A DNA stretch of 15,285 nucleotides from NCBI GenBank assembly GCA_026645575.1, contig JAPKMW010000169.1:1-15285 (forward strand), in the 5' to 3' direction. The notes beneath the pieces are model-generated. The model was not told where the DNA came from and made no database searches. It saw only the letters and a program-made list of their open reading frames with translations. This stretch comes from Caldilineaceae bacterium. GTDB taxonomy: Bacteria; Chloroflexota; Anaerolineae; Caldilineales; Caldilineaceae. The position numbers and the translations under genes were made by a program. Shown here piece after piece: positions 541 to 14,672 of the stretch. Each line of letters begins with the position of its first letter. Position 1 is the first letter of the stretch.

Positions 541-569
541 TTGCTGTACTCGTCCCCCCTTGTTATACT
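541..569 (+). promoter_or_regulatory. Possible sigma70 promoter for the surface-protein operon
   Basis: TTGCTG (541-546) and TATACT (564-569) are separated by 17 nt, which fits a sigma70 -35/-10 pair with a weak -35. A second TATACT at 576-581 belongs to a 12-bp-period direct repeat of TTATACTTA but has no matching -35. The predicted transcript would start near 576, leaving a leader of about 97 nt before the ATG at 673. Prediction from consensus only. Confidence 0.35.
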
Positions 570-672
570 TATTATTATACTTAAGAGTAAAGTACTGCAC
601 TCGCAGTTTTCTCATCGCTCTTCCCGACGCGCTCATTGCAGCCAAAGCGTTTTACCTATTGAAGGCGACACT

Positions 673-3576
673 ATGCGCTCTTACAGAATCGGCCTCCTTC
701 TGCTTATGCTTGGGTTGGCAACCGGTTGGTGGGTAAGCACGCCGACACGCGTCACCAGTCAAGACACAACAACGACAATTGATTTTGAGTCGCCCACGTT
801 GGGTGCATTGGCGCGTACGATTGTCGATCCCTACCAACCGAATGCCCTGGTGACCTTTACCAGCGCCATGCCGGCCAATGGCGTCACTGTGGTGGGGCTG
901 GTCAAAAACAACGCGACTAGCGTCTGTGTCGAACCAGCGGATATGAATCAAAAGTTTGGCTCCGGGCGCGCCAACTTTAGCGACGGCGCCATCGGTTACG
1001 GCACCGCCGCCATCCGCGCCGACTTTACCCAACCCCTGGCCCCGCCCCAAGTGATAGCTGTCGATTTTCAGACCGGCGCCGGGTTACCGGTGCGACTGCG
1101 TCTCTTTGATGCGGCTGGTACTGAAATTGGGGCTGTCACCGAAAGCGCAACCGACACCGGCGGCACCTGTGGTCTCCCAGGGCAACTGCGCGCACGTAAG
1201 CGGTTGACGCTGCGTGCCGAGCAACCGGTGGTCGCAGCGATCATGGATATGAGCGCCGACACGGGTCGCTTTGTCTTTACCATCGATAACTTCACCTTTG
1301 GCCCCGCCCCAGCCGATGATCCGTCCACGGGTCACAGACAGAGCGATCTAAAGCTTGCCGTTGTCGACGCGCCGACGGCTGTGCGCGCCGGTGAACCTTT
1401 CACTTACACTCTACACCTGACCAATCTGGGGCCAAAACCGGCTGACACTGTCGTGCTGACTACGACGTTGGACAGCGGTTTTACGCTGCTAGGCACCAGT
1501 GGAGACCAAGCACCCTGTCGTCCTACTGCCGCAACTCTGGTTTGCCCTATACTACCGCTGACGGTGAATGGCAGCGCGTCGGTAGCACTGACCCTGGCGG
1601 CCCATGCGGAACGTAGTGACCAAATGATAGCAGTCGCGGCGACTGTTCAGGATCAACACAACCATGACCCGGCGCCCGACAATAACCACATCACCACCGT
1701 TTTGCCGGTGTCGAGTGGGCGCGTTAGCAACGGGTTACAGGCTTTCTACACCTTTCACCAAGCCGAACCAGGGGTAATTTACGATTTATCCGGTGTGGGT
1801 ACGCCGCTCAATTTGACGGTACAAACGCCAACCCAGGTGCAGAACAGACCTGGCGGTTTAAAAATTATTACGCCAACGTTGATTAGCGCTACCGCGACCC
1901 AGAAATTACGGCAGGCCATTGTCACCAGCGGCGAGGTCAGCGTTGAGGCATGGCTTGTGCCGGCGCCCCAGCGGACTGCCCAACCGGCCCACCTGCTTAC
2001 CTTGGCGGGCAACGATGCCACCACGCTGTTGTCGCTCTTACAGGAACCCTATGGCACTCAAGCCGCCGGCCTCTATACGGCGCACCTGCTGACCAACCAA
2101 GCGCCCACCGGCAACCGCCTTTCGGCCACACCCGCCACCAACCCAACGGGGCAACGACTTCATCTGGTCTATACGCGCAATGCCGCCGGATTGGCCCGCC
2201 TCTATCTCAACGGCACAGCGCAGGCGACCAAAGCCATGAGCGGCGATCTGGCCGGTTGGCCTGCGCAACCCACGCTCCGTCTGGCCGCTAGCCCGACGGG
2301 GGAACAACCCTGGCTGGGTGAATATCAATTGTTGGCCTTCTATAGCCGCGCGCTTAACGCAACCGAGGTACAACAAAATTACCGTAATGGTCCGCATGGG
2401 GACGGCCCCACCGATGAGGAAGATAGCGATGATGACCTCTTTGGCTATGATTATGAAGTGTGGGTCGATCCGGTCACGCCCTTTGCTGGCGCCGCCGTGA
2501 AGCTGGGTGCGGTGGTGCATCGTCTGGCTGGCAAGCAGGTTGTGAGTGATGTCGGTGTACGCTTTTATCTTGGCGATCCGGCACATGGCGGGCAACGCAT
2601 TGGCGATGCGCTGGTGGAACGGCTCTCGCCCCGTAGCTCGGCGCTTTCAACGGACGTGACCTGGACGCCGCCGGCGGCCGGGACGTACGCGCTCTATGTC
2701 CAGATCGATCCGCAAAATCGGATTAGTGAGACCGACGAGGGGAACAATCTTCTGGTGCGCACGGTTATGGTGCGTTCGCCCGCCACCCCGCCGACCGGTG
2801 ATCTGGTGGCGCCCCATGTCGATGCGTTTACCATTGGCGACAATCAGAGCAGCAGTAGTCAGCGCAACGTGCAACTGTCCGTAACGGTTTCTGATCCTGC
2901 CCCGACTTCCGGCATTGAGGGTGTGGCCTTTGTCGAATATGCCTATGCCCCTGAGGCCGGCGCCTGGCGTATTGTCCAATCGTCGGCGTGGCTGCCCTAT
3001 CAAGCAGCGCCGGCGCGTTATGAGTGGCAACTGCAAGCGGCGCCGGGGTTAAAATATCTCCAGGCATGGGCCAAAGACAAGGCCGGCAATATTTCCCTCT
3101 TTCCCTATACACGCTACATTAATTACGCCCCGCCCATTCTTCAGGTCAACCGGGAGAGTATCCAGATTCTGCGCTTTGGCGTCCAGGCCGGCGACCGGCT
3201 CACGATCCGGCTGCTGGCTTTGCAAGGCGACCCCGACCTCTATCTCTGGCCGCCCGACCATCAAGAGGGGCGACCGCCGTGGGTGAGCAACTTGCGCGGT
3301 AGCATTGACGCCGTCAGCCTGATCGCACCGGTGACGGGCAACTATCAGATTGAGATTTACGGCTTTACCTTTGCCGAATACCAGTTACAGATCATTCAGG
3401 AGCCGGCCCCCGCAACCGCCGCCGGCGATGCAGGGGCTGATGAAGGCGGGATCGATCCCAGCAAGGCGCGCTTTACCCAACCGTGGGTCAAGCTGACCAG
3501 CGTTCCCGCCACCAGCCAAGCGTTTCTGTTACTGACGGGGCAAGGCTATAAAACATTTCTTCCGCTGATTCGGTGA
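673..3576 (+). CDS. Large secreted multidomain surface protein (DUF11, LamG, CARDB, PPC-like)
   Basis: Predicted exported 967-aa adhesin- or matrix-type protein; no catalytic site is visible. The ATG at 673 is preferred over a longer open frame from TTG 541 because AAGG lies 7 nt upstream and a clean signal peptide follows ([20 protein letters not shown]). Domains by appearance: an N-terminal beta-rich domain (about 36-212), a DUF11-type repeat (about 223-347, DLKLAVV...[12 protein letters not shown]), a LamG/concanavalin-like domain (about 353-574, GLQAFYTF...SVEAWL...LYLNG), a short acidic linker, a CARDB-like domain (about 592-700, ending [11 protein letters not shown]), an Ig-like domain (about 714-817, WAKDKAGN) and a PPC-like beta sandwich (about 818-911, GDPDLYLW). 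The protein ends in TFLPLIR, a tail it shares with three other exported proteins here. It sits 11 bp before the next gene, so co-transcription is likely. Domain names are from pattern recognition; ligand unknown. Confidence 0.85.
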
Positions 3577-3587
3577 GTAGAAGAGCT

Positions 3588-5267
3588 ATGCAAAAATCAA
3601 TGGTAGGTTTCATCCTTCTGCTGGTGCTGTTTACCGCCTGGCCCCTGTCGCTTTATGCCCAATTTGGCCCGGAGATTTGCGACGATGGGATTGACAACGA
3701 CAGCGACTTTCTGGTTGATTACCAAGATCCTGACTGTGACACCAGTGACGATGACCGCGACGGCATCACCGATCTAGCCGAAGGGGATCAGGCAATCGAC
3801 AGCGACGCCGATACCAGCCCCGACTCGCGTGATCTGGACAGCGACAACGACGGCGCCCCTGATGCTACGGAAGGCCATGATGCCAATGGGGATGGACGGC
3901 CCGATCGCTTGCCCACCGGCAGCGACACCGATGGTGACGGGCTGGATGACGCCTATGATCCAGACCAGGGTGGAATAGTAGCGCCGCTGTCGGACCGTGA
4001 TGGCGACGGCACGCCCGATTGGCGCGATGCCGATGACGATGGCGACCATGTGGCGACCGCCGCCGAAGATGTTGACGGCAACGGCGCGCCGATCAACGAC
4101 GATACCGACGGTGACGGTCTGCCCGACTATCTTGACACTGACGATGACAATGATGGTCTACTAACCCAGCAAGAAGATCGCAATGGTGACGGCAACCCGG
4201 CCAACGACGACGGCAACAACGACGGCATCCCCGATTTCCGCCAGCCCAACGACCGGGTGAGCGGCATTGTCTGGCGCGACCAAAATGGCGACGGCATCCG
4301 CGCGCTGACCGATCCCTTTCTGCCCAACTTTGTCGTGACGCTGCTCGATGGCCCAACCTTGACACCGATCATGACAACGACGACAACCATCACCGGCTGG
4401 TATGGGCTGGTGGCGCCAACCGGCGGCGAGTTCCTGGTCGAGTTTAAGCCCGTGGCCCGTCTCCTGCCCACCCGTCGCGACCAGGGCAATGATGAAGCGA
4501 CCGACAGTGATATTCTTCAGGTGGGAAGCGAGATGAAAGGGCGCTCCCCGCGCTTGACCTTTGGTTATGCCGGTGCAACGACCAACATCGACGCCGGTTT
4601 TCTGCGTCCGGCCAACCTTAGTGTCTATGCGTTTGACGATCGCAACCGCGATGGCACACGCCAGGTCGGTGAAGCCTTGGTCGCCGGCGCCACTGTGATC
4701 CTCCTCGACAGCGCCAGCAATGAAGTGCGGCGCAGTATGCCCGGCAATACGGGCGAAATCCTCTTCCCCGATCTGCTGCCCGATGCTTATCAACTAGACG
4801 TTACACCGCCGACTACCTATCTGGTCGACCGACAGAAACTCCTGCCGTTGACGCCGTTGGCCCCGGCAGACGACTTACTATACGAAGTTCCACTCTATCT
4901 AAATCCCAAGGCGGTGACTTTTGTCGCCTTTACTGCCCGTTATCAGGAACAGAGCATCCGGGTCAGTTGGACAACAGCAGCAGAGGTGCAGACCCAGGGG
5001 TATCATCTCTACCAAAGCATGGATGATATTTTCAGCCACGCCCACCGTCTCACCACTGACTTGATCCCCAGCCAGGGCAGCACGGGTGGCGACTATCAGG
5101 TGACGTTCCCTTACAATCCAGCCTATCAACCACCACTGGTGCGCTTCCATTTCTGGCTGGTCGAGCATGAAAGTACCGGCGAGCAACTACGCTACGGCCC
5201 CATCCGTGTGGTCAATCCGGGGTCATTGCTGTTACTACCGATTGTAAGGGGAGCAGACGCGGATTGA
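3588..5267 (+). CDS. Secreted Asp-rich calcium-binding repeat / SdrD-like protein
   Basis: Predicted exported 559-aa surface protein. The ATG at 3588 gives a good signal peptide ([20 protein letters not shown], cleavage after LYA) with AGAAGAG just upstream. A GTG at 3573, overlapping the previous stop by 4 bp, would add five residues and is the alternative. After cleavage comes a MopE-like Cys motif ([17 protein letters not shown], about 28-50), then a run of thrombospondin-type-3-like repeats (about 51-221) with many DxDxDG loops typical of Ca2+ binding. Two SdrD-B-like modules follow (about 224-340, [13 protein letters not shown]; about 342-440, [11 protein letters not shown]), then a fibronectin-like region (about 443-543, [21 protein letters not shown]). 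The end reads LLLLPIVR followed by [13 protein letters not shown] matches the shared tail, and GADAD is encoded inside a dispersed repeat, so the original C-terminus was probably at or near the Arg. Likely a calcium-stiffened matrix or adhesion protein acting with its upstream neighbour. Confidence 0.85.
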
Positions 5268-5430
5268 CAGACGCGAATATACGGAGCGATACATCGCTTA
5301 AGATTGCTAAGGCCGCTCCCAGCCGGTCCGTGACTGGAGACTGGATAGTAAGCAGCCACCATCGTATCCGCTCAATCCGCCTTCGTATATCCGCGCATTC
5401 TAAATCTGCGTCTGTTCATCCGCATCTGTC
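5253..5430. repeat. ATCCGC-type interspersed inverted repeat filling a convergent gene gap
   Basis: The left arm (about 5254-5286, CAGACGCGGAT...ACAGACGCG...TATACG) is matched in inverse orientation by the right arm (about 5382-5430, CGTATATCCGCG...GCGTCTGTTCATCCGCATCTGT). The left arm lacks roughly 17 bp present in the right. Further GTATCCGC and AATCCGC words lie at 5364-5380. The loop holds GCCGGTCCGTGACTGG (5322-5337), a degenerate copy of the palindrome core seen elsewhere in the window. The element supplies the last codons and stop of the upstream gene, and its other edge touches the stop of the methyltransferase gene. Such ATCCGCG-word repeats are widely seen in bacterial intergenic regions. 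It may act as a two-way terminator hairpin. Confidence 0.65.
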
Positions 5431-6229
5431 ACCGCACCAAGCGAAAGACCAATTCCGTGGCAAAGGGGAAGGGGGTCACCTGCCAGGAGCTATGTTGCAA
5501 CAGCGTTTGAAGGTGAGCAGGATAGGTGGTGGTCATCCCTTTATGGCGGCCGCCCAGGCTTTGCCCGGGGAAGGAGACGATAAGGACGGGCGCATCAATG
5601 GTAGTGAGTAGGCGTGCGCCGATAGTTGGGTCCACCTGTTCTAGGCAAGGCAAGGTTTTGAGCAGCAGCACCACATCGGCTTTGGTGGTTGGGATTGCTT
5701 CCACCAAGTTGCAAACGGTTGCGCTGCCCTGCATCCCCAGCAACGGCAAGGTGCGCTGGAGGAACGCAGCTTGATCGTGGGCAATGTCGCAGGCGTGATA
5801 AACCACATCCTCGGCCAGCGGCATCCAGGGAATCGTTAAAGGGTTAAGACCACAGGCCAGATCCAGCACCGTGTGGATCGGCGGCAGACCGGCAAAGATT
5901 GTGGTATAAAAAACGGGTAGGAGCGGCAGCCGTTCGCGTGTTGACGCGTGGTGACGCAGAATCGTTTGACAGACTGTGCGCAGTTGTGCCGGATCAGCCG
6001 CAGCCGCTGTCAACAAGGTCAACCACTCGTCATACGCCGGCTCGCCTTGCCAATAGGCCCCGACGGTCTGGTGCAGCTTATTTTTTGTGGCCTTAACCGC
6101 TTCCTTTTGATTGCGCCGCTTGCGTAACTCCTGCGCGCCGATGGTGCGAATCAACGCCGGCGCCACTGCGCGGTATTTGGCGCTGCTAAGGACTGTTTCA
6201 ACGAGTGCGTCTAATGCTACGTCTGCCAC
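5429..6229 (-). CDS. 16S rRNA (guanine1405-N7)-methyltransferase, Arm/Rmt (FmrO) family
   Basis: Predicted SAM-dependent enzyme that methylates N7 of G1405 in the 30S A-site, a change known to block 4,6-linked deoxystreptamine aminoglycosides. The 266-aa length fits ArmA/Rmt proteins. Family hallmarks in order: KLHQTVGAYW (about 51-60), HASTRERLPLLPVFY (about 94-108), SAM motif I VLDLACGLNPL (about 121-131), YHACDI (144-149), LLLKTLPCLEQ (188-198), SFPGQSLGGRHKGM (219-232) and the C-terminal ELVFRLV. These line up with ArmA as I remember it (KLHQIWGSYY, HSSTNERV, ILDFGCGFNPL, YHAYDID, LLKMLPVLKQ, SFPIKSLSGKEKGM). The GTG at 6229 is chosen because GAGGAG (6242-6237) lies 7 nt upstream; GTG 6259 is longer but lacks such a site. 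The gene stands alone, with no aminoglycoside biosynthesis genes or mobile elements beside it. Family assignment is strong; activity and resistance are inferred. Confidence 0.9.
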   Translation of the reverse strand: MADVALDALVETVLSSAKYRAVAPALIRTIGAQELRKRRNQKEAVKATKNKLHQTVGAYWQGEPAYDEWLTLLTAAAADPAQLRTVCQTILRHHASTRERLPLLPVFYTTIFAGLPPIHTVLDLACGLNPLTIPWMPLAEDVVYHACDIAHDQAAFLQRTLPLLGMQGSATVCNLVEAIPTTKADVVLLLKTLPCLEQVDPTIGARLLTTIDAPVLIVSFPGQSLGGRHKGMTTTYPAHLQTLLQHSSWQVTPFPFATELVFRLVR

Positions 6230-6236
6230 AAATTTA

Positions 6237-6262
6237 CTCCTCAAAAGCACTTTAAGCACTTT
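6237..6262 (-). promoter_or_regulatory. Ribosome binding site and 9-bp tandem repeat before the methyltransferase
   Basis: On the minus strand GAGGAG (6242-6237) sits 7 nt before GTG 6229 and decides the start. Immediately upstream, plus-strand AAGCACTTT occurs twice in tandem (6245-6253 and 6254-6262). The tandem pair lies in the 5' leader or promoter and could be a small operator; no regulator is encoded nearby. Confidence 0.5.
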
Positions 6263-6269
6263 TCGCTGC

Positions 6270-6298
6270 TTGACATTCTACTTGCTTCGTGCTAGGTT
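6270..6298 (+). promoter_or_regulatory. Sigma70-like promoter for the DUF4058 gene
   Basis: TTGACA (6270-6275) is a perfect -35. After a 17-nt spacer, TAGGTT (6293-6298) is an acceptable -10 (4 of 6). Transcription would start near 6305, giving a leader of about 70 nt to the ATG at 6378. The only downstream plus-strand gene is the DUF4058 gene. Confidence 0.55.
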
Positions 6299-6377
6299 AT
6301 GGAAATAAGAAGCAAGGTGGATAGATGAATCGTCGGCAATCGCTTTACATGCAACTGGTTATCATGGAGGTTTTGCC

Positions 6378-7175
6378 ATGACAAAGTCGCCCTTTCCAGG
6401 CATGGATCCCTTTTTAGAACGGCCAGCCAAATGGAGCAGCGTGCATACACGGCTGATCAACGCCATTAGCGATCAACTGGCCGAGCGGCTGGCCCCCAAT
6501 TTCTATGTGGAAATTGAAGAACGGGTCACGTTAACGCTGGCGGCTGATCCCAAAGTGCGACCACAGATCGAGCCGGATGTCTATGTCGTGCGTGCGCCTG
6601 CCCTTAGCCCAGTGGCAACCACAGTCATACCAATCACGGCGCCTCAAATCACAACGCCTACGGTGGTAGAAGCGCTCTACAGCGAGGAGATCCGCCAACG
6701 CTATCTGGAAATCCGTGATAGTGCGCAGCGAGAGGTAGTGACAACCATTGAGTTATTGTCCCCTTTCAACAAAATGAGCGGCGAGCGCGGACGGGTTGAT
6801 TTTCTTAAGAAGCGCGAGCGGGTCATGGCTTCCGACGTACATTGGATTGAGATCGATCTTTTGCGCGCCGGCACACGAACGCCGGAAGTGGCCGATAAAA
6901 GCGCCTATTACGCTTTACTAAAACGGGGCGGTACACTGGGGCTGTTTGAAGTCTGGTACATTGGTCTGCGTGATCGCTTACCTACCATCGCCGTGCCATT
7001 GCGTCCACCCTTTGACGATGCCCCGTTGGACTTGCAAGCCGCCTTTGACGACATGTACCAACGCGCCCATTACGCCCAAAGCATCGATTACACCGCAGAC
7101 CTACCTGCGCCAGTGTTAAACCTGCCCGATCAGCAGTGGGTGAAGCAATCTATCACTCAGTGGCGTGCAGGGTAA
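6378..7175 (+). CDS. DUF4058 family protein
   Basis: Predicted cytoplasmic 265-aa protein of a family common in cyanobacteria and Chloroflexota and of unknown function. The N-terminal signature SPFPGMDPFLE (4-14) and the following QLAERLAPNFYVEIEERV are typical. The central part carries IEPDVYVV (about 68-75), then YLEIRD and VVTTIELLSPFNK (about 112-135), and WIEIDLLRAG (about 156-165). The order of an Asp after Pro, then Glu and Lys on a strand, is reminiscent of PD-(D/E)XK nuclease-like folds, but I cannot confirm that from sequence alone. Start: ATG 6378 with GGAGG (6366-6370) 7 nt upstream. There is no signal peptide or membrane segment. Transcribed divergently from the methyltransferase; the stop is 39 bp from the convergent transporter gene. 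Family call is confident, role unknown. Confidence 0.9.
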   Translation: MTKSPFPGMDPFLERPAKWSSVHTRLINAISDQLAERLAPNFYVEIEERVTLTLAADPKVRPQIEPDVYVVRAPALSPVATTVIPITAPQITTPTVVEALYSEEIRQRYLEIRDSAQREVVTTIELLSPFNKMSGERGRVDFLKKRERVMASDVHWIEIDLLRAGTRTPEVADKSAYYALLKRGGTLGLFEVWYIGLRDRLPTIAVPLRPPFDDAPLDLQAAFDDMYQRAHYAQSIDYTADLPAPVLNLPDQQWVKQSITQWRAG

Positions 7176-7182
7176 TGCGATT

Positions 7183-7206
7183 GTTGTTACCTTATCAGGC
7201 AGCAAC
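7183..7206. terminator. Hairpin between convergent genes
   Basis: GTTGTTACCT (7183-7192) pairs with AGGCAGCAAC (7197-7206) around a TATC loop, with one wobble and one mismatch. It lies in the 39-bp gap between the convergent DUF4058 and substrate-binding genes. No T-run follows on either strand, so intrinsic termination is plausible but not certain. Confidence 0.35.
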
Positions 7207-7214
7207 CTAACCAC

Positions 7215-8918
7215 CTACTGTTTTAATTTCCACTGCTGCGCATCCCACGTTAAGCTACCCCACATGTTAACCTGATAGCCACTTAGGCGGTTGGAAACGC
7301 CATATCCTTCGGTAAAGCGATAGAGATGAATGCGCGGCACGGCGGCGGCGATCAATTGCGCCAGATCGCAATAGGCGCGCTGGCGTTCGGTCACATCAAC
7401 CGTGGCGCCGGCCTTGGCAATGGCAGCATCGGCGGCGGCGTTTACCCAGCGCGAATAGTTGGCGCCGGCGGGGTTCTCCGGTGATGGAATCTCGGTTGAA
7501 TGAAACGCGTTGACAACTGCTGTCTGCGGCTCAATCGGCAGGCTGGCATCGTAGAGGAGCAGATCAAAGTTACCCAGTTTGCGCGGCGCCCCTTCCTGGT
7601 ACGAGCCAAAGATCAACCCAATGTCATCATTCTGTACAATCACTTCAACACCCACCGCCTTAAACATCTCTACCAGCGCTTCTTCTAAGCGCACAAGGGG
7701 TTCAAAGTTGGTATAGCCGTTAAGATGGAGCGTCAAACGGCTTCCCTCCTCCGTGTGGCGTGCGCCATACGCCACACGGATCCCATCGTCGCCGCGTAGC
7801 CAACCGGCAGCGGCCAACAAGGCGCGCGCTTTGTTCGGATCGTAGGGGTAGGGCTGCTCCAGTACACATTGATACCAGCCGTAGGCAAAGGGTGTGGTCG
7901 CGGGCGCCACATCGGGGTTGATCTCCCGGACAATCCGTTCATAATCAATAGCATGAGCCAACGCCTGGCGCACACGCAAATCGCCCAAAATGGGGTGGGG
8001 CGGCACTGAACCCGGATCATCGTCAAAGGGCTTGCTCAGATTAAGGTAGAGCGCCATATTCCACTGGCCGGGGATTTCAGCCAAGGTTGCTTGTCCGGCC
8101 ATCTGTTGATCATAAAGCGCTTTGCTTTCGCCGGGCCACAGATGAAGATGCGCCTGTTCTTGCGCCATGGCGGCAAGTTGGGCGTCGGTTTCCGGCAGAA
8201 TCGTGAAGATCAAACGGTCGAGGTAGGGCTGCCCGGCTAGGTAGTAGTAGGGATTGCGCGTCATGACAATGCGCTCACCCGGCGTCCATTCGCTCACGAC
8301 AAAAGGGCCGGCGCCTACGGGTTGCCGATTCCACGCCCAGTTACTCATTTCTGCCGGCTCTCCGGTGGCATGACGGGGCAGAAGGCCGACCATAAATTGT
8401 TGGAGATAGGCCAGATTCATGGCCTTATAATGGACGATGGCGGTCAAATCATCGGGCGTTTCAATACGGTCGATTAGGTCAAAGTCAGAGGAAAAAACCG
8501 TACCGCTCTCTGGGTGCGCAACCGCTTCCCAAGTAAATTTAATATCATCTGCCGTCAGCGGGGCGCCATCCGACCAGCGCAACCCCGGACGCAAACGCCA
8601 GGTCACGGTGCGAAAATCGGAGGAAACGCCACCATTGTCCAAGGTGGGCAATTCAACCGCAAGGATCGGTTGAAAATTACCGGATGCATCAATCGTGGTC
8701 AAGCCGGCGGTTGTGGCATCAGCCACCTGGCGCACAATCGGCGCCGCAGCTAAATACTGATTGAGCGTGATCGGCTCTTCTGGAATGAGCAGCACAACCT
8801 GACCACCGCCGGCAGTTGCCAATACTTCTGGACCAGCAATATTGCGCTGCGGCGCTGTACAAAGGGCGAAAAAGAGCGCAAGGATCAACAGCGCCATCAA
8901 ATATTTTGGATTTGGCAT
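7215..8918 (-). CDS. ABC transporter substrate-binding protein, family 5 (peptide/oligopeptide type)
   Basis: Predicted exported solute-binding component of a dipeptide/oligopeptide-type ABC importer; ligand not predictable. The 567-aa length and motifs fit the family: WRLRPGLRWSDGAPLTADDI (about 107-126), PVGAGPFVVSEWTPGERI with MTRNPYYY (about 200-225), and DLRVRQALAHAIDYERIV. The N-terminus is a hydrophobic export signal (LMALLILALFFALCTAP). The Cys after ALFFAL is in lipobox position, but Leu at -1 is not canonical, so lipid anchoring is doubtful. Start: ATG 8918. The nearest purine-rich site (GATGAG) is too far away to be convincing, so initiation may be weak. No permease or ATPase genes lie within the window, so this is an orphan binding protein. 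Only the 62-aa gene lies just upstream on the same strand, 65 bp away. Confidence 0.9.
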   Translation of the reverse strand: MPNPKYLMALLILALFFALCTAPQRNIAGPEVLATAGGGQVVLLIPEEPITLNQYLAAAPIVRQVADATTAGLTTIDASGNFQPILAVELPTLDNGGVSSDFRTVTWRLRPGLRWSDGAPLTADDIKFTWEAVAHPESGTVFSSDFDLIDRIETPDDLTAIVHYKAMNLAYLQQFMVGLLPRHATGEPAEMSNWAWNRQPVGAGPFVVSEWTPGERIVMTRNPYYYLAGQPYLDRLIFTILPETDAQLAAMAQEQAHLHLWPGESKALYDQQMAGQATLAEIPGQWNMALYLNLSKPFDDDPGSVPPHPILGDLRVRQALAHAIDYERIVREINPDVAPATTPFAYGWYQCVLEQPYPYDPNKARALLAAAGWLRGDDGIRVAYGARHTEEGSRLTLHLNGYTNFEPLVRLEEALVEMFKAVGVEVIVQNDDIGLIFGSYQEGAPRKLGNFDLLLYDASLPIEPQTAVVNAFHSTEIPSPENPAGANYSRWVNAAADAAIAKAGATVDVTERQRAYCDLAQLIAAAVPRIHLYRFTEGYGVSNRLSGYQVNMWGSLTWDAQQWKLKQ

Positions 8919-8928
8919 GATGATACTT

Positions 8929-8956
8929 GCTCATCACTGTACTCGCTCATCACTGT
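8929..8956. repeat. 12-bp direct repeat GCTCATCACTGT x2
   Basis: GCTCATCACTGT occurs at 8929-8940 and 8945-8956, a 16-bp period, about 10 bp upstream of the substrate-binding protein start. The position suits an operator or a leader RNA element; it may also be chance slippage duplication. Confidence 0.5.
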
Positions 8957-8983
8957 GCTGCTAAAACTGCCCAGTAGAGCTAA

Positions 8984-9172
8984 TCAATCAGCAGCCGCAT
9001 ATAGCGGTGTACTTTCATTCAACTCAGTCTCAAGGTGATTATTTTCCCGTTCATCTTCTTCTTGGGGTTGTTCACCTGTTTTGTCATGATACTCCTGCAA
9101 GCAGGAAATCAGATCGAGCAATTGTTGCGGTGTCAAACGGATAATGGCGGCTTCAATTTCATGGATGCTCAT
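8984..9172 (-). CDS. Small hypothetical protein, 62 aa
   Basis: I do not recognise a named family. The N-terminal half (MSIHEIEAAIIRLTPQQLLDLISCLQEYHDK) looks like a helical pair with the pattern IExAIxxLxPxxLxxLxxxLxEY. That pattern is shared by many small proteins beside RelE/ParE-type toxins, where it forms the antitoxin or its relic. The C-terminal half is very acidic and Asn/Gln-rich (EQPQEEDERENNHLETE), probably disordered. A strong Shine-Dalgarno (AAGGGGG) lies about 8 nt before the ATG at 9172, which is the main reason to believe the gene. No toxin-like partner lies next to it. The substrate-binding gene follows 65 bp downstream on the same strand and might be co-transcribed. Antitoxin-like origin is only a guess. 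Confidence 0.6.
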   Translation of the reverse strand: MSIHEIEAAIIRLTPQQLLDLISCLQEYHDKTGEQPQEEDERENNHLETELNESTPLYAAAD

Positions 9173-9275
9173 AGTTTATCCCCCTTGGCGCGGTCGCACC
9201 ATTGCAACGGTTACAGGAACGAAAGGTCGGGGGCATGGCTCCTGATCATCATTTTAATCGGGCGCGTCGAGACAC

Positions 9276-9281
9276 ATTATA
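9276..9281 (-). promoter_or_regulatory. Possible -10 box for the 62-aa gene
   Basis: Read on the minus strand, 9281-9276 is TATAAT, a perfect -10. The -35 at a normal distance is poor (TTACTT with 18-nt spacing). Transcription would start near 9268, about 95 nt before the ATG at 9172. Confidence 0.3.
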
Positions 9282-9434
9282 CTTACAAGCAGCACAGTAA
9301 AGTAACCGATTATCCCTGTATAAAGTGTTACTTTCTGGCGCTCGTTGGTAAACAAAACAGATGGCACTAACCCAATATTATCACGATTATTCGGGCGATG
9401 TCAATAGGATCTTTCGTTTTTTGGGGGTGCGTTT

Positions 9435-9493
9435 GTAACTACTCAGCCCACACTAAGGGTCCGTGACCGGCGAAGCGAGCGCTTAGTAGTTAC
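9435..9493. repeat. Palindromic element with GTAACTACT termini and CCGTGACCGGC core
   Basis: GTAACTACT (9435-9443) is matched by AGTAGTTAC (9485-9493). With the next bases the ends read GTAACTACTCAG and CTTAGTAGTTAC, pairing at 11 of 12 positions. Inside is GGTCCGTGACCGGC (9458-9471), the core shared with elements at 5322, 14724 and 15103. This terminal-repeat-plus-core layout resembles a REP or very short MITE; no target-site duplication is obvious. Confidence 0.6.
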
Positions 9494-9704
9494 GTGCGTT
9501 TCAAGATTTTACAGGCGCAATGCTTGATAGCTGACCTTTCTGTGATGTAAGAGTCAAAGGGACTTTTGTCCGATTTGGGTTCAGCACGCTTCCACAACTG
9601 ACGAACAAAGACGGAGCAAACCGACGATTTATCTTGCTATAGTTCCATGTACTATGTGAATCGCACCATTGGCTGACGTGCGTCTAGGGTTGAAGGAAGA
9701 TATT

Positions 9705-11111
9705 ATGCCTGTTCTCGCTAAGAAAATCAATTTGTTCCTATTAGTTCTCATTCAGATGTTTGCACTTAGTGGTTGGCATCTTCGGTATAGCCCTGTGGCG
9801 GCGGCGGCGCCGGCTGAGATGAGCGCCTTGGTTGAGCAAATGGTGTTGGTTCACTTTGAACCCACCGCCACCGATAGCGACCGGGCGGCAACCATTGCCG
9901 CCATGCAAGGGGAACTGATTGAGTGGCTGCCACAGATCCAGGTGGCGAAAGTTCGTCTGATCGCCAATAATGAAACTGAACAAACTCTGCTGAAAGGGAA
10001 TGCAGCGGATGTCGCCCAGCGTCGTTTACAAACAACCGAGCGCGCTATGACGGCAGCAGCTTATGTGGAGAATGATGTTATCGTTGCAGGCGCCTATTTG
10101 CCCAGCGATCCCGATGTCGCCAACCCTTCACGCACCTACCCATTAACCGTAACCCATGCGATCGCCGGCTGGGATTACACCCGTGGCGATAGTTCTATCA
10201 TCATTGCCGTCCTCGATTCCGGCATCAACCTGACCCACCCTGAGTTTAGTGGGCGTCTCCTGCCAGGCTATGACTTCATCAACAACGATGCCGATCCTAC
10301 CGATGATCATGGACATGGTTCGCATACTGGGGGCATCATCGGCGCCGGTATCGACAATGGCATGGGGATGGTCGGTGTTTGCCCGCAATGTACGCTGCTC
10401 CCCGTGAAGGTGCTCAATTACAACAATGCCGGCACTTGGTCGAGTGTGGCGCAGGGCATCCTCTTTGCCACCGATCAGGGGGCGCGTGTCATCAACTTAA
10501 GTCTGGGCGCTAGTGTTTCGTCCAAGACGTTGGAAGCGGCAGTCAGCTATGCGGTTGAGCGCAATGTGCTGATTGTCGCCGCTGCCGGCAACATGGGAAC
10601 GGATCGCAAATTTTACCCGGCGGCGCTGGATAATGTGCTGGCCGTCAGCGCGACCGACGAGAATGATCAGCGTTGGGTATTGAGCAACATGGGCGATTAT
10701 GTCGATCTGGCAGCCCCTGGTCATGCCGTTTATAGCACCTATAATGATCTGCAAAATTATTATAACGGCTACAACTATATGAGCGGCACCAGCATGGCCG
10801 CCCCCCACGTTGCGGGCTTGGCTGGTTTACTGTTAAGCCAAAAACCAACTCGCACGCCCACCGATCTCTATAACATTATGACCAATACGGCCGACCGGTT
10901 GACTACCGCCACGCGCGACGCCTACTTCGGTTATGGCCGGATCAATGTGGTGCGGGCGTTGGCTTTTGATGCCCCAACGTCGCCACCGGCTGTAGCCGGT
11001 GGCGAACAAACCCCGCCCGCCGAGCAACCAAGCAGCGACGATGACACGCCCAGCACCGGCAATGAGCAACAAACCCGCTCACTGTACATTCCCCTGCTCT
11101 TCCGTTCATAA
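9705..11111 (+). CDS. Secreted S8 family subtilisin-like serine protease
   Basis: Predicted exported 468-aa endopeptidase. ATG 9705 is chosen over an upstream TTG at 9669 because AAGGA (9693-9697) lies 7 nt before it and the signal peptide begins there (KKINLFLLVLIQMFALSGWH, then AAAAPA). Residues about 40-130 look like an inhibitor-type propeptide (LVEQMVLVHFEP). All catalytic elements are present: Asp171 in AVLDSGINLTHPEF, His204 in DDHGHGSHTGG, oxyanion Asn296 in AAAGNMG, and Ser363 in GTSMAAPHVAGLAG. A Cys pair, CPQC (226-229), lies before TLLPVKVL. The C-terminus is a Pro/Asp/Gln-rich linker ending SLYIPLLFRS, the shared tail of exported proteins in this window. The gene is monocistronic, followed by a repeat element and a strong terminator. 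Likely role: extracellular protein degradation or processing of neighbouring surface proteins (the latter is inference). Confidence 0.93.
   Translation: MPVLAKKINLFLLVLIQMFALSGWHLRYSPVAAAAPAEMSALVEQMVLVHFEPTATDSDRAATIAAMQGELIEWLPQIQVAKVRLIANNETEQTLLKGNAADVAQRRLQTTERAMTAAAYVENDVIVAGAYLPSDPDVANPSRTYPLTVTHAIAGWDYTRGDSSIIIAVLDSGINLTHPEFSGRLLPGYDFINNDADPTDDHGHGSHTGGIIGAGIDNGMGMVGVCPQCTLLPVKVLNYNNAGTWSSVAQGILFATDQGARVINLSLGASVSSKTLEAAVSYAVERNVLIVAAAGNMGTDRKFYPAALDNVLAVSATDENDQRWVLSNMGDYVDLAAPGHAVYSTYNDLQNYYNGYNYMSGTSMAAPHVAGLAGLLLSQKPTRTPTDLYNIMTNTADRLTTATRDAYFGYGRINVVRALAFDAPTSPPAVAGGEQTPPAEQPSSDDDTPSTGNEQQTRSLYIPLLFRS
10980..11005. repeat. Perfect 11-bp hairpin inside the protease linker
   Basis: TCGCCACCGGC (10980-10990) and GCCGGTGGCGA (10995-11005) pair perfectly around TGTA. 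The hairpin encodes part of the low-complexity linker (SPPAVAGGE) just before the C-terminal tail. It could be an inserted REP-like sequence tolerated in a linker, or simply a consequence of Pro/Ala/Gly codons. Confidence 0.5.
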
Positions 11112-11135
11112 TCGAACTGGCGCAACGATTACGTC

Positions 11136-11157
11136 AATCCAATGCAAATCCAATGCA
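11136..11157. repeat. 11-bp tandem repeat AATCCAATGCA x2
   Basis: Two exact tandem copies (11136-11146 and 11147-11157) lie between the protease stop and the structured element that starts at 11157. No function is evident. Confidence 0.45.
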
Positions 11158-11302
11158 ATTAACCTGAGTTCGGCGTTAGCCAAAGACCTCCGGGAGGTGG
11201 GTACACGAAGCTGCGGCTAACGCGGATTCTCTACCCACGGGTGCCCATCGGGCGCGGAGGTCTTTGGCGGGTATACCCACGAAACGTCGAATTCACGTAA
11301 TT
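11157..11302. repeat. Large nested inverted-repeat element
   Basis: Three nested pairings are visible: outer AATTAACCTGAGTTCG (11157-11172) with CGAATTCACGTAATT (11288-11302, imperfect); GCCAAAGACCTCCG (11179-11192) with CGGAGGTCTTTGGC (11255-11268, perfect 14 bp); and GTGGGTA (11197-11203) with TACCCAC (11232-11238). An alternative pairing is GCGTTAGCC (11173-11181) with GGCTAACGC (11215-11223). The element ends one base before the terminator stem. It looks like an inserted non-coding repeat or a structured 3' UTR. Confidence 0.6.
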
Positions 11303-11335
11303 AAAAAGTCCGCAGCCTTTTGCTGCGGACTTTTT
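11303..11335. terminator. Strong bidirectional intrinsic terminator
   Basis: A perfect 14-bp stem (11303-11316 with 11322-11335) has GTCCGCAGC/GCTGCGGAC at its centre, a 5-nt loop, an A-run on the left and a T-run on the right. It therefore works on both strands. It serves the protease gene (plus) and the convergent DUF1800-DUF1501 operon (minus), 67 bp past the DUF1501 stop. A further minus-strand hairpin (CCCCTTCT at 11348-11355 with AGAAGGGG at 11382-11389) precedes it in the operon transcript. Confidence 0.9.
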
Positions 11336-11402
11336 TGTCTTCTGTCTCCCCTTCTGCCAAGCCATCCACAGATCGCCGGGTAGAAGGGGGACTTACGCTC
11401 TC

Positions 11403-12791
11403 TTATTGTTTTTGAATCACCGGTAAGTAGACCCGTGAGCTACTACCGGTTGGAATGGTTGATCCTGGCGGCGGTGTTGGCGTAGGGGTAGCGGCCGGCG
11501 CCTCATAAATGGGCGCTAGATCGGCGCCCTGGACAACACCTGTCGGTTGATAGTTGGTGTAACCGGGGAAGATATAGCCGAGATTGGGGTTTTGTAAACG
11601 CCGAATCAAAATTTCGCTGAGAACGGTGCGGTAGTCGGTGGTGATTGCCAGATCGCGCCGATCATAGAGTTGTTCGGTGCTAAGACCCGGCCAGTTGCCA
11701 TAGACCGTGCCGCCATTCACCTGACCGCCCAACACAAACATGACATTCCCGTGACCATGATCAGTGCCGCGGCTGGCATTCTGCTTAAAGGTGCGCCCAA
11801 ACTCGCTCATGACAACGACGGTGATCCGTTGCGTGTAATTCACCCCATTGGAGTTGCTCAGGTCGGTCATAAAGGCCGCCAGCCCATTGGCCAGGTTGCC
11901 GAATTGATTGGAAAAATAACCAGCGCCATTGTCACCTTGGGATTCATGCGTGTCCCATCCACCCAAATCGATGGTGGCGACACGCATGCCCAGTTGCAAT
12001 TTGACCATTTGCGCAATGGTTTTGAGATTTTGCCCAAAACTACCATTGGGGTAGACGGCGCCATTCTCTGGCGTATAGTTGCCGGGGTTGCCATATTCCA
12101 CCACATCAATGGCGTCCATCGTTTGCTGACCGGCTTGATGGAGCCAAGTTTCACCGCTATAGGCTTTGCGTAGCGCGGACCGTTGGGCATTCCCATAATT
12201 CCAAGGGCCGCCGAAGGAGAAGCTGTTGGGATTGGTCATGCCGATAGCGTCGGTGCTGCCGGCCAGCGATGTCGGGGCCAGATTGCCCACAGTCAACGCC
12301 GGCATAATGATCTCGCCCGGCAAATTTTGCGATGTCTGGAGATGCCGAGTGAGCCAACCGCTGGTGGCGCTCTTGCTGCCGGGCGTCCCCAATTCCATAT
12401 ATTTCATTGCGTCAAAGTGGCTACGCGTGTCGCTGGTCAAGCCGGCGGCATGGATAATCGCCAGCTTTTTATCCTGATAGAAGCCAAGCAGCGGCGCGCC
12501 GGCCGGGTGGAGACCAAAGAAGTCGGTTAGGGGCAACGCCGCATTCGTGCCGCTGACCGGTATGGCGATATTTTCGCGACTGGCCTGATAATGACCGCGG
12601 TCAGCGCCGGCCAGCGGCATGACGGCGCTTAGGCCATCCATACCGCCGCGCAAAAAGACGACGACCAGAATTTCTTGGTTTGGTTCTTGCTCTGGGCTGC
12701 CAAAGGCAATATAGCCCAAACGACCACCGGCCATTGCGGCAATGGCCGTCGAGCAACCCACCATAAAACCGCGCCGTGTTACTTCAAACAT
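11403..12791 (-). CDS. DUF1501 family Tat-exported protein
   Basis: 462-aa exported protein of a family often annotated as sulfatase-like, with no proven reaction. The Tat signal starts at once (MFEVTRRGFMVGCSTAIAAM, twin Arg at 6-7). Family marks are LRGGMDGLSAVMPL (about 47-60), GGWDTHES (about 279) and EFGRTFKQNASRGTDHGHGN (about 330-350), whose Asp/His residues could bind metal. ATG 12791 is preferred because AGGGGG lies 5 nt upstream; a GTG at 12818 touching the previous stop would add nine residues. The C-terminus has a Thr-Pro linker (TPTPTPPPG) and the tail RVYLPVIQKQ, similar to the other tailed proteins here. It is the second gene of an operon, 27 bp after DUF1800. These two families recur as a pair in many bacteria, which suggests a shared extracytoplasmic function still unknown. 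Confidence 0.9.
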   Translation of the reverse strand: MFEVTRRGFMVGCSTAIAAMAGGRLGYIAFGSPEQEPNQEILVVVFLRGGMDGLSAVMPLAGADRGHYQASRENIAIPVSGTNAALPLTDFFGLHPAGAPLLGFYQDKKLAIIHAAGLTSDTRSHFDAMKYMELGTPGSKSATSGWLTRHLQTSQNLPGEIIMPALTVGNLAPTSLAGSTDAIGMTNPNSFSFGGPWNYGNAQRSALRKAYSGETWLHQAGQQTMDAIDVVEYGNPGNYTPENGAVYPNGSFGQNLKTIAQMVKLQLGMRVATIDLGGWDTHESQGDNGAGYFSNQFGNLANGLAAFMTDLSNSNGVNYTQRITVVVMSEFGRTFKQNASRGTDHGHGNVMFVLGGQVNGGTVYGNWPGLSTEQLYDRRDLAITTDYRTVLSEILIRRLQNPNLGYIFPGYTNYQPTGVVQGADLAPIYEAPAATPTPTPPPGSTIPTGSSSRVYLPVIQKQ

Positions 12792-12818
12792 CTTTACCCC
12801 CTTTTTATCCGTACTCAC

Positions 12819-14672
12819 TTAACGCCACTGAAACGACGGCGCCATAAAGATGAGCGCGATCATATAGCGGAGCCGATCGGTTAGCTCTTTGTCTGGCAGA
12901 TCAAAATTCGGGTTGCGCCCATTGGCCATAAAATCGACAATGGGCTGCCGTTCACTGTCGGGCAGGGGTTGATTTAAGAGGCGATTGGCCCAGTAATCAA
13001 CCAGGGCATAGGGCGTTTTGATGCCGGCTGGGGTCACAAAATTTAAACGGTAGCTGTCTTTGTTTGGTCCTTCACCGCCATACTTCCAGTCGATCATCGT
13101 ATTGCAGACCCGCCAGCGTTGCAACATGGGCATGGTGCTGCTCCAAGTCGCCTTGTCATCGGGGAAACCATTGGGGGGCGACCAGGCAAAGAGTGGCTGC
13201 CCCATCGCTTCATAGCTCCAGAAGAAGCCATTGTCAGGGGTGAAGTCGGCTTCGGCGGCGCGCAAGAGGCTGACCACATACTCAAAGGGGCGTTTGATCT
13301 TTTCCCCCCAGGTCGTGCGAAATTCCGGTGAGAGCAAAATGGTGCGCGTCACCTGGCGCAGTTGGTCGGGGGCATCCAGATTGGCCATAAAGACATCAGC
13401 AGCGGCTTGCACGATCCGTTCCGGCGGTTCATCCTGGATGAGCCGCCGACAGAGCCGCCGACAAATATAGCGAGCGGACATTGGGTGGCGCGCCAGGATA
13501 TCCAGCACATCACGACCATCTTTGATCCCTTGCGCCGGCGGAATCGACCGCCCCAGCACCAGCTTATGGTAAGGATAGTGGGCATTGGCGTCAAACTCAA
13601 AGAGACCGGTGTCGTTATTGACCCGCCAGCCGGTAAAGCAGGTGGTGGCGCCGTAGACATCATCATCAACATAGAGCAGCGGTCTGCCATTACTATCTTT
13701 GGGCGCCGGGTGTTCATAGTTGTTGTCCTTAATGGTTGACACCACGCCCAGATAGTTTTCGGCGCCCATACCATGTAATTCAAAGAGTTCACGGGCATAA
13801 TTTTCGTTGGGGTTGCCGCCCGAATTGGATTGATTGTCCAGGTAGTAGAGCATGGCCGGACTAGTGGCGACCGCTTCGAGCATGGTGCGGAAGTTGCCCA
13901 ACAGGTTGGCGCGGATGACATCGCGATCATAGTGAACAAACATGGGCGCCGTCCAACTGTCCCAGCCAAAGATGCTAAAGTGGTTGTGCCAATGGTCGGC
14001 CAGGACTTCGTTCAACTGGCGCCGACTATGCAACGCACGCAAAAAAGCCACCTTGCGCGTCTCCTCCACTGGTTGAATCCGTTCGCCGTAGGGCAGGTTC
14101 GGCTTCTTCACATGTTCGGCCCACAGTTGCGCCTGCGATTTGCCCAACGTGGTAAAGCCGTAGGTGCTGATAATGGCGTCACAGGTGCTGTCATCAATTG
14201 CCTCCGGGTAGAGTTGTTGCTCAATGTAGGCCGTTAGACAAGCTTCGGGGGTGGCGCCGAGGGCATTGAAGGCGGCCAGATCGCCCGGTCGCGGGCCAAA
14301 GCCCATGCGATTGAGGGCAATCACGCCCAGTGGCGGCAATGTTGGCATGGCGCCGGCGGCCACCGACCGTGCCGTTGTTGACCGCATACGCGGCGTGTTG
14401 TCGGTGGCGCTTTGCGCATTGGCGGTTTCGGCGCTTTCGCTATTCAACGTATGGGCAAAGGCGGCGACGCTGGCCAGTCCGCTGCCGAGGAGCAAGCTGC
14501 GCCTGGTGAACAGTGGCTGGGGGTGATGGGATCGTACCGTTACTTTCGGTTGATCGGTTGTTAGATCCGTTGCTGTTGAATCCATATCCATTAGGGCTGG
14601 GCTGGTAGAATGGGGTTCGATGAGAGGTGCAGTGGAAGGGCTTGCCATTCGATCCGGTTGGATTTCTGGCAT
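12819..14672 (-). CDS. DUF1800 family Tat-exported protein
   Basis: 617-aa exported protein of unknown biochemical function. ATG 14672 has a strong Shine-Dalgarno (GAGGAGG, 7 nt spacing). The Tat signal is set unusually deep: about 54 Ser/Thr/Pro-rich residues precede TRRSLLLGSGLASVAAFAHT (twin Arg at 57-58). Family hallmarks follow: VIALNRMGFGPRPGD (about 118-132), DHWHNHFSIFGW (about 227-238), NYARELFELHGMGAENY (about 289-305), TTCFTGWRVNN (about 345), HPMSARYICRRLCRRL (about 396) and the terminal MAPSFQWR. Its C-terminus stops at the family end and has no YLPLI-type tail, unlike its operon partner DUF1501. First gene of the operon, with a consensus promoter about 150 bp upstream and a structured leader. 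A shorter N-terminus starting at an internal Met cannot be excluded, but no comparable ribosome site supports one. Confidence 0.9.
   Translation of the reverse strand: MPEIQPDRMASPSTAPLIEPHSTSPALMDMDSTATDLTTDQPKVTVRSHHPQPLFTRRSLLLGSGLASVAAFAHTLNSESAETANAQSATDNTPRMRSTTARSVAAGAMPTLPPLGVIALNRMGFGPRPGDLAAFNALGATPEACLTAYIEQQLYPEAIDDSTCDAIISTYGFTTLGKSQAQLWAEHVKKPNLPYGERIQPVEETRKVAFLRALHSRRQLNEVLADHWHNHFSIFGWDSWTAPMFVHYDRDVIRANLLGNFRTMLEAVATSPAMLYYLDNQSNSGGNPNENYARELFELHGMGAENYLGVVSTIKDNNYEHPAPKDSNGRPLLYVDDDVYGATTCFTGWRVNNDTGLFEFDANAHYPYHKLVLGRSIPPAQGIKDGRDVLDILARHPMSARYICRRLCRRLIQDEPPERIVQAAADVFMANLDAPDQLRQVTRTILLSPEFRTTWGEKIKRPFEYVVSLLRAAEADFTPDNGFFWSYEAMGQPLFAWSPPNGFPDDKATWSSTMPMLQRWRVCNTMIDWKYGGEGPNKDSYRLNFVTPAGIKTPYALVDYWANRLLNQPLPDSERQPIVDFMANGRNPNFDLPDKELTDRLRYMIALIFMAPSFQWR

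Follow-up and report, generated by a model that had tools for sequence, protein, structure and literature searches.

A YLP-box tail on unrelated exported proteins in several Chloroflexota lineages: a putative surface-sorting tag

C-terminal sorting of diverse exported proteins is represented by the PEP-CTERM/exosortase, LPXTG/sortase and type IX secretion systems; in the last of these a folded domain some 80 residues long serves as the signal, and peptidase family C25 includes the gingipains and PorU. A much shorter signal has been catalogued in NCBIfam 20.0, where the models NF053834 (ultrashort_CTERM) and NF050076 (sort_motif_YLP) are both described as a "YLP-box putative sorting motif". Here we analyze a tail of this kind in a Caldilineaceae contig (JAPKMW010000169.1; 15,285 nucleotides, hereafter the window), in which a first-pass annotation had noticed that four exported proteins with different folds, namely a DUF1501 protein, a subtilase, a calcium-repeat protein and an adhesin-like protein, end alike.

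Judged from its sequence, the tail is not new as a motif and belongs to the catalogued YLP-box. Both are C-terminal motifs of 10–11 positions found on exported proteins; the difference is that just one of the four window tails, that of DUF1501, exceeds a cut-off, with 15.4 bits against 10 for NF053834 and 13.1 bits, below the required 15, for NF050076. For the adhesin, calcium-repeat and subtilase tails hmmscan reported no NCBIfam match, and HMMER filters may drop matches as short as these. The first of 46 tail proteins scanned matched both models among the matches listed. Whole-genome searches with NF053834 at expectation values (E) up to 10 gave 14–49 matches in six tail-positive genomes and 0–5 in a further six, of which five are Chloroflexota and one is from Acidobacteria. 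As a genome count this model is weak: of 14 named control genomes it matched 11 at the E limit of 10 and still 9 at a limit of 2, several matches being internal or due to chance, and low counts are no evidence either way. Literature searches, whose coverage excluded preprints and most subscription journals, found no study of the YLP tail.

Tail consensus and association with export

All four window tails are present in translation at the positions given by the first-pass annotation, and N-terminal export signals are visible by eye on all four proteins; DUF1501 also passes the twin-arginine (Tat) model TIGR01409 (17.4 bits against a cut-off of 16.7). The DUF1800 and solute-binding proteins, said to lack the tail, do lack it, as their translated endings confirm (Table 1). 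The tail consensus is [VIL]-[YF]-[LI]-P-x-[VIT]-x-[RK], usually followed by zero to two further residues, and it stands at the extreme C-terminus in homologues of three of the four window families (DUF1501, subtilase and calcium-repeat). Among the 120 DUF1501 homologues listed (7999 found), the core lies within the last 20 residues in 110, and the other 10 have a T at one core position. For the subtilase, 103 of 120 listed homologues (one of these the window's own; 5000 found) carry the core, and 9 of the remaining 17 are T or S variants, as read from the listing. In both families the linker is variable and the chain end conserved. The homologue logos were built from full-length homologues aligned on the core, so the core letters are partly imposed, while the preceding hydrophobic residue and the following R/K were not used for the alignment.

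A broader set of tails was collected with a search pattern that fixes Y and P and restricts the other positions; its logo is informative only at positions -1 and +3 and for the choice of R/K among the allowed codons. Four of the 54 motif-matching genes were judged false and dropped before the linker and logo counts (n = 50), and 46 of the remaining 50 tail proteins make up alignment A4. One of the four dropped genes, L095, is an exact pattern match and was retained in the export count below. The tail had been described as usually following a low-complexity linker. This holds for DUF1501 and the subtilase; as a general rule it does not stand, since the enrichment of P/T/S/G ahead of the tail in the broad set is weak (0.38 vs. 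0.32, p = 0.04). A low-complexity linker is thus typical of these two families and not general. The Fisher and Mann-Whitney tests used in this work assume independent genes and genomes, which relatives are not.

The chain ends almost directly past the core, and the tail accordingly lacks a hydrophobic helix, as had been claimed. It stops two or three residues past the five-residue core in 101 of 110 DUF1501 proteins and 93 of 103 subtilases (S8), and in 45 of 50 other tails, most of which were picked by a pattern that requires a stop. Neither does the tail appear to be the last strand of an ordinary domain in the two cases modeled with AlphaFold2. In the DUF1501 model, which is only fair (mean predicted local distance difference test, pLDDT, of 68.5), residues 443–471 have pLDDT < 50 and no strand is drawn. 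In the subtilase model the same is true of residues 426–460, the last block, 461–468, has a mean of 49, and again no strand is seen. Low pLDDT together with the missing strands argues that these two tails are not terminal strands.

The association with export was assessed in stretches around tail matches in six tail-positive genomes, in evenly spaced (random) stretches of two of these, and in stretches of two tail-negative genomes; genes were called by a simple coding model, and export was scored by a crude signal-peptide rule of our own making. Of the 41 exact pattern matches, 36 lie at the end of a called gene, and the rule scores 30 of those genes as exported. The background is much lower: 106 exported genes among 584 in the evenly spaced stretches, and 82 among the 485 other genes of the tail-match stretches. 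The first-pass annotation had named two outcomes that would refute its interpretation, an equal frequency of the pattern in cytoplasmic proteins and tails that merely form the last strand of a domain; the export counts show no such equality, and the two models show no such strand. Genome G121 has 7 of 292 genes ending in the strict core in its evenly spaced stretches, whereas 0.30 would be expected from the density of the core inside proteins; 5 of the 7 are among the 53 exported genes and 2 among the 239 others. Of the two non-exported proteins, one is clearly paralogous to three exported tail proteins, and the second is a membrane protein, whose core ending is probably due to chance. In the stretches of the two tail-negative genomes, the strict core ends none of 194 genes.

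Even in tail-bearing genomes most exported proteins are tail-less, the strict core being found on 6 of 106 exported genes in the random stretches of G121 and G145. Proteins that do bear the tail are longer (median of 714 residues, n = 54) than other exported proteins (291.5 residues, n = 182), and they less frequently have a lipobox by a crude rule (4/54 vs. 53/182). They are also diverse: 82 Pfam families were assigned across 46 tail proteins, and none was matched by more than three.

Distribution among genomes

The presence of the tail is a genome trait of some lineages, patchy within Chloroflexota, that tracks the genome and not the fold. The DUF1501 tail is present at loci of Caldilineaceae, Litorilinea, Ardenticatenia, Herpetosiphonaceae, Roseilinea and Chloroflexus type, whereas the protein is untailed at many loci of Anaerolineales type, as well as in Acidobacteria and others. 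Comparison of pattern matches with matches to the reversed pattern gave 15 vs. 2 in G001, 15 vs. 0 in G009 and 10 vs. 0 in G005, with near parity in many other genomes. DUF1501 is tailed mainly where the genome uses the tail elsewhere. Fifteen Chloroflexota genomes with a tailed DUF1501 have 92 genome-wide pattern matches vs. 11 reversed ones, while 18 with an untailed DUF1501 have 38 vs. 29; the match counts of the two groups differ with p = 2e-4 (Mann-Whitney test, 33 genomes, kinship uncorrected). The main test omits the borderline loci L008 and L037; in repeats that place these on either side and also drop L061, p ranges from 9e-5 to 6e-4. Pattern matches in small Chloroflexota genomes were judged from their sequences to be chance occurrences and set aside.

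The initial interpretation stands in part: there is a shared C-terminal tag in several Chloroflexota lineages, strongly enriched on exported proteins of both the Sec and the Tat type, and it does not extend to all Chloroflexota.

At three Chloroflexi/Chloroflexus loci (L026, L027 and L028) the DUF1501 tails end in or near a cysteine (YLPLMTQC, YLPMTGKC and FVPVIQQCR, respectively).

Candidate readers and possible roles

We consider it reasonably probable that the YLP-box is a linear tag recognized in trans after Sec or Tat export, placing large, mostly unanchored exoproteins at the surface. A large exoprotein exported by either route would expose its C-terminal peptide, and a conserved envelope component would recognize the exposed tail in trans; this recognition would keep exoproteins that mostly have no other anchor at the cell surface or sheath, and processing may accompany it. 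With its strand-like core, its basic end and almost nothing after the core, the tail suits direct docking by the chain end more than it suits a signal for a membrane-embedded transpeptidase, and we infer that surface retention proceeds through the tail.

A covalent sorting signal is a rather unlikely alternative, and the one that survives best. In this case a transpeptidase or C-terminal peptidase would cut in or just before YLPxV and attach the protein to the wall or to a polymer of the surface, as do sortase, exosortase and PorU of family C25. Both the NCBIfam name, "putative sorting motif", and the likeness of the LPx[V/I/T] core to LPxTG argue for it, and the absence of a hydrophobic helix past the core argues against it. 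Sortase (PF04203) was found in 41 of 45 genomes, i.e., in 24 of 25 tail-positive ones and also in 17 of 20 tail-negative ones. It had no match in tail-positive G179, where four genes end in the tail and where an assembly gap or a diverged sortase is possible. Being near-universal whatever the tail status and not found in G179, sortase was rejected as the reader of the tail. Exosortase (PF09721) was rejected as well: it occurs in 2 of 17 genomes, both among the 10 tail-positive ones, and is missing from the other eight, G179 included.

Peptidase C25 seemed a very strong candidate in a first set of 18 genomes, where it was found in 10 of 10 tail-positive vs. 1 of 8 tail-negative ones. Among 201 genomes, C25 is present in 21 of the 24 that have five or more NF053834 matches vs. 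12 of 177 others, thresholds of 4, 6, 8 and 10 giving the same picture. However, peptidase C11, included as a control, follows the tail almost as closely (16/24 vs. 7/177 in the same 201 genomes), and C25 proteins themselves bear tails, three of six inspected C25 genes ending in clear tails and two in variants. Further, C25 has no match in G217, G052 and G161, all of which have genes ending in the tail: three exported ones in G052, two exported ones in G161, and three in the single-contig genome G217, two of them with a candidate signal and none scored as exported by our rule. For these three reasons we read the C25 association as a reflection of lineage and exoproteome size; tailed genomes lacking C25, together with the C11 control, led us to reject a C25/PorU-type peptidase as the reader.

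In two cases a tailed C25 gene lies directly ahead of a sortase gene on the same strand: G121:C1:5931505-5933870 (L222) and G009:C241:19403-21790 (L226), the latter in Herpetosiphonaceae.

The neighborhoods of tail genes contain 23 families that recur in at least three genomes, none resembling dedicated machinery. The first-pass annotation had proposed to look for a gene family whose presence follows that of the tail; among sortase, exosortase, C25, C11 and the neighbor families examined, none does so exclusively.

Yet lower is the probability that the tail serves folding, stability or protection from degradation, for instance as a C-terminal cap or a chaperone site, with no role in sorting. 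Carboxypeptidases and tail-specific proteases act at the chain end, and the tail is found on soluble proteins and on a few lipobox-bearing ones alike, as this explanation would allow. It is opposed by the many entirely tail-less DUF1501 relatives in other Chloroflexota genomes and by the small share of exported genes with the strict core in random stretches of the two tail-positive genomes. Finally, coincidence or composition bias of C-termini, which would suit the non-significant result for G145 and the chance-like matches in small genomes and to NF053834, is most improbable and, in our judgment, already refuted by conservation in two unrelated families combined with the export enrichment; the much rarer reversed pattern in tail-positive genomes such as G001 and G009 also speaks against it.

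Several observations weigh against recognition in trans of a dedicated export-linked tag. Of the 41 exact matches, five do not coincide with the end of a called gene, and 6 of the 36 called genes with an exact match are scored as non-exported; inspection by eye suggests that four of the latter (L088, L089, L096 and L120) reflect signals that were missed or truncated, or an artefact of the rule, and the other two, L095 and L105, may be chance matches. In the evenly spaced stretches of G145 the strict core ends only 1 of 292 genes (1 of 53 exported, 0 of 239 other), compared with 0.32 expected, which is not significant. The reversed-pattern control is noisy in places, with no matches vs. 15 reversed ones in G034, and the DUF1501 of G225 (locus L020) is untailed, although the pattern puts this genome among the tail-positive ones. 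As four tail genes also score a lipobox by the crude rule, the tail does not simply stand in for a lipid anchor. Lastly, our searches identified neither a receptor nor an enzyme, and the localization role is putative.

More tentatively, recognition in trans could be extended to a general scheme, with a helix-free, lineage-wide sorting tag of 7–8 residues directing at least a dozen unrelated substrates of Sec and Tat in each genome to the surface, read by something other than sortase, exosortase or C25. It would be one of several lineage-specific tags exchangeable on a given exported fold, another being the ending DGFESGDxxxW of some Acidobacteriota DUF1501 proteins; we regard this as possible, on the doubtful side. 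If the tag does sort, it would act as an address label for large proteins of the surface, such as adhesins, proteases and glycosidases, in several lineages of Chloroflexota, and whatever reads it would represent surface machinery of a new type. The search for this reader is now narrowed, as a universal one must occur in G179, which lacks PF04203 and PF09721, and in G217, G052 and G161, which lack C25. The sets of DUF1501 orthologues with and without the tail provide material for clean experiments.

The Caldilineaceae window and comparison with known systems

The closest named relatives of the window's DUF1501 and subtilase proteins, by homologue searches, are from Caldilineaceae. In addition to the features in Table 1, the window encodes a DUF4058 protein (Pfam).

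Table 1. Genes and C-terminal tails of the window
Feature	Position	Strand	Evidence and remarks
Adhesin-like protein	541..3576	+	DUF11, Laminin_G_3, CARDB, weak PPC (Pfam)
Adhesin tail TFLPLIR	3553..3573	+	Translation; slightly off consensus, R one residue early
SdrD_B/calcium-repeat protein	3573..5267	+	Pfam; Sec-type signal by eye
Calcium-repeat tail LLLLPIVR, then GADAD	5226..5249	+	Translation
FmrO-type rRNA methyltransferase	5429-6259	-	PF07091, E 5e-58; flanked by unrelated genes
Family 5 solute-binding protein	7215..8918	-	Pfam; lipobox-like N-terminus by eye; no tail, ends QWKLKQ
Subtilase (Peptidase_S8)	9669..11111	+	Pfam; Sec-type signal
Subtilase tail SLYIPLLFRS	11079..11108	+	Translation, homologues; after low-complexity linker
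DUF1501 tail RVYLPVIQKQ	11406..11435	-	Canonical YLP-box; after P/T-rich linker
DUF1501 protein	11403..12818	-	Pfam; twin-arginine signal
DUF1800 protein adjoining DUF1501	12819..14672	-	Pfam; no tail, ends APSFQWR

Two of the gene starts are probably internal to the frames listed. The adhesin probably begins at about position 673, followed by a Sec-type signal, both being judged by eye, and the subtilase probably at 9705 (MPVLAKKINLFLLVLIQ...), the same start as in its homologue P0121. The PF07091 family takes its name from aminoglycoside resistance methylases.

The calcium-repeat tail is, with that of the adhesin, one of two off the consensus: in it LL replaces [YF][LI], and five additional residues follow. 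The LLLLPI form is common to the window protein and its four closest relatives, where the tail looks aberrant, whereas more distant relatives have recognizable FLP tails (TIFLPVIRAVR, TIFLPIIMGVR and TLFLPLIVQ). On these grounds we read it as a drifted copy of the YLP tail.

A different ending is seen on five DUF1501 proteins of Acidobacteriota/Thermoanaerobaculia (L009, L010, L011, L012 and L014), which end in F.DGFE[ST]G....W; other Acidobacteria DUF1501 proteins, L023 among them, lack it. The DNA pattern for DGFE.G is far more frequent than its reverse in G015 (36 vs. 1), G016 (91 vs. 0) and G242 (65 vs. 0), but not in G241 (3 vs. 1). Twelve DGFE.G loci were returned: in six the motif lies at most 20 residues from the stop behind a frame of at least 360 codons, four continue for 124–505 residues, and two are very short frames. 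Five endings scanned matched no NCBIfam tail model, and DGFESG was not found in any paper within the coverage of our literature search. It may be a second, uncatalogued tail.

The YLP tail shares with the PEP-CTERM/exosortase system the principle that one C-terminal tag is used across a lineage by many exported proteins unrelated to each other. It differs in lacking the hydrophobic helix and the basic cluster that follow the PEP-CTERM motif, and exosortase is missing from most (8/10) of the tail-positive genomes tested. The likeness to LPXTG/sortase lies in the short LPx[VIT] core near the C-terminus and the basic end, placed in DUF1501 after a P/T-rich linker; in contrast to LPXTG, the YLP tail has no glycine and no helix, its motif is the very end of the protein, and tail-positive G179 has no PF04203 match. 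Type IX secretion with PorU resembles it in the C-terminal sorting of diverse exported proteins, and C25 proteins occur in most genomes (21/24) with at least five NF053834 matches; however, the YLP tail is unstructured in the two models and is not a folded signal domain, and C25 is missing from tail-bearing G217, G052 and G161. Given the features of the known signals, the YLP tail has neither the length nor the elements of a PEP-CTERM, LPXTG, GlyGly-CTERM or type IX secretion signal, although by analogy it may work like them.

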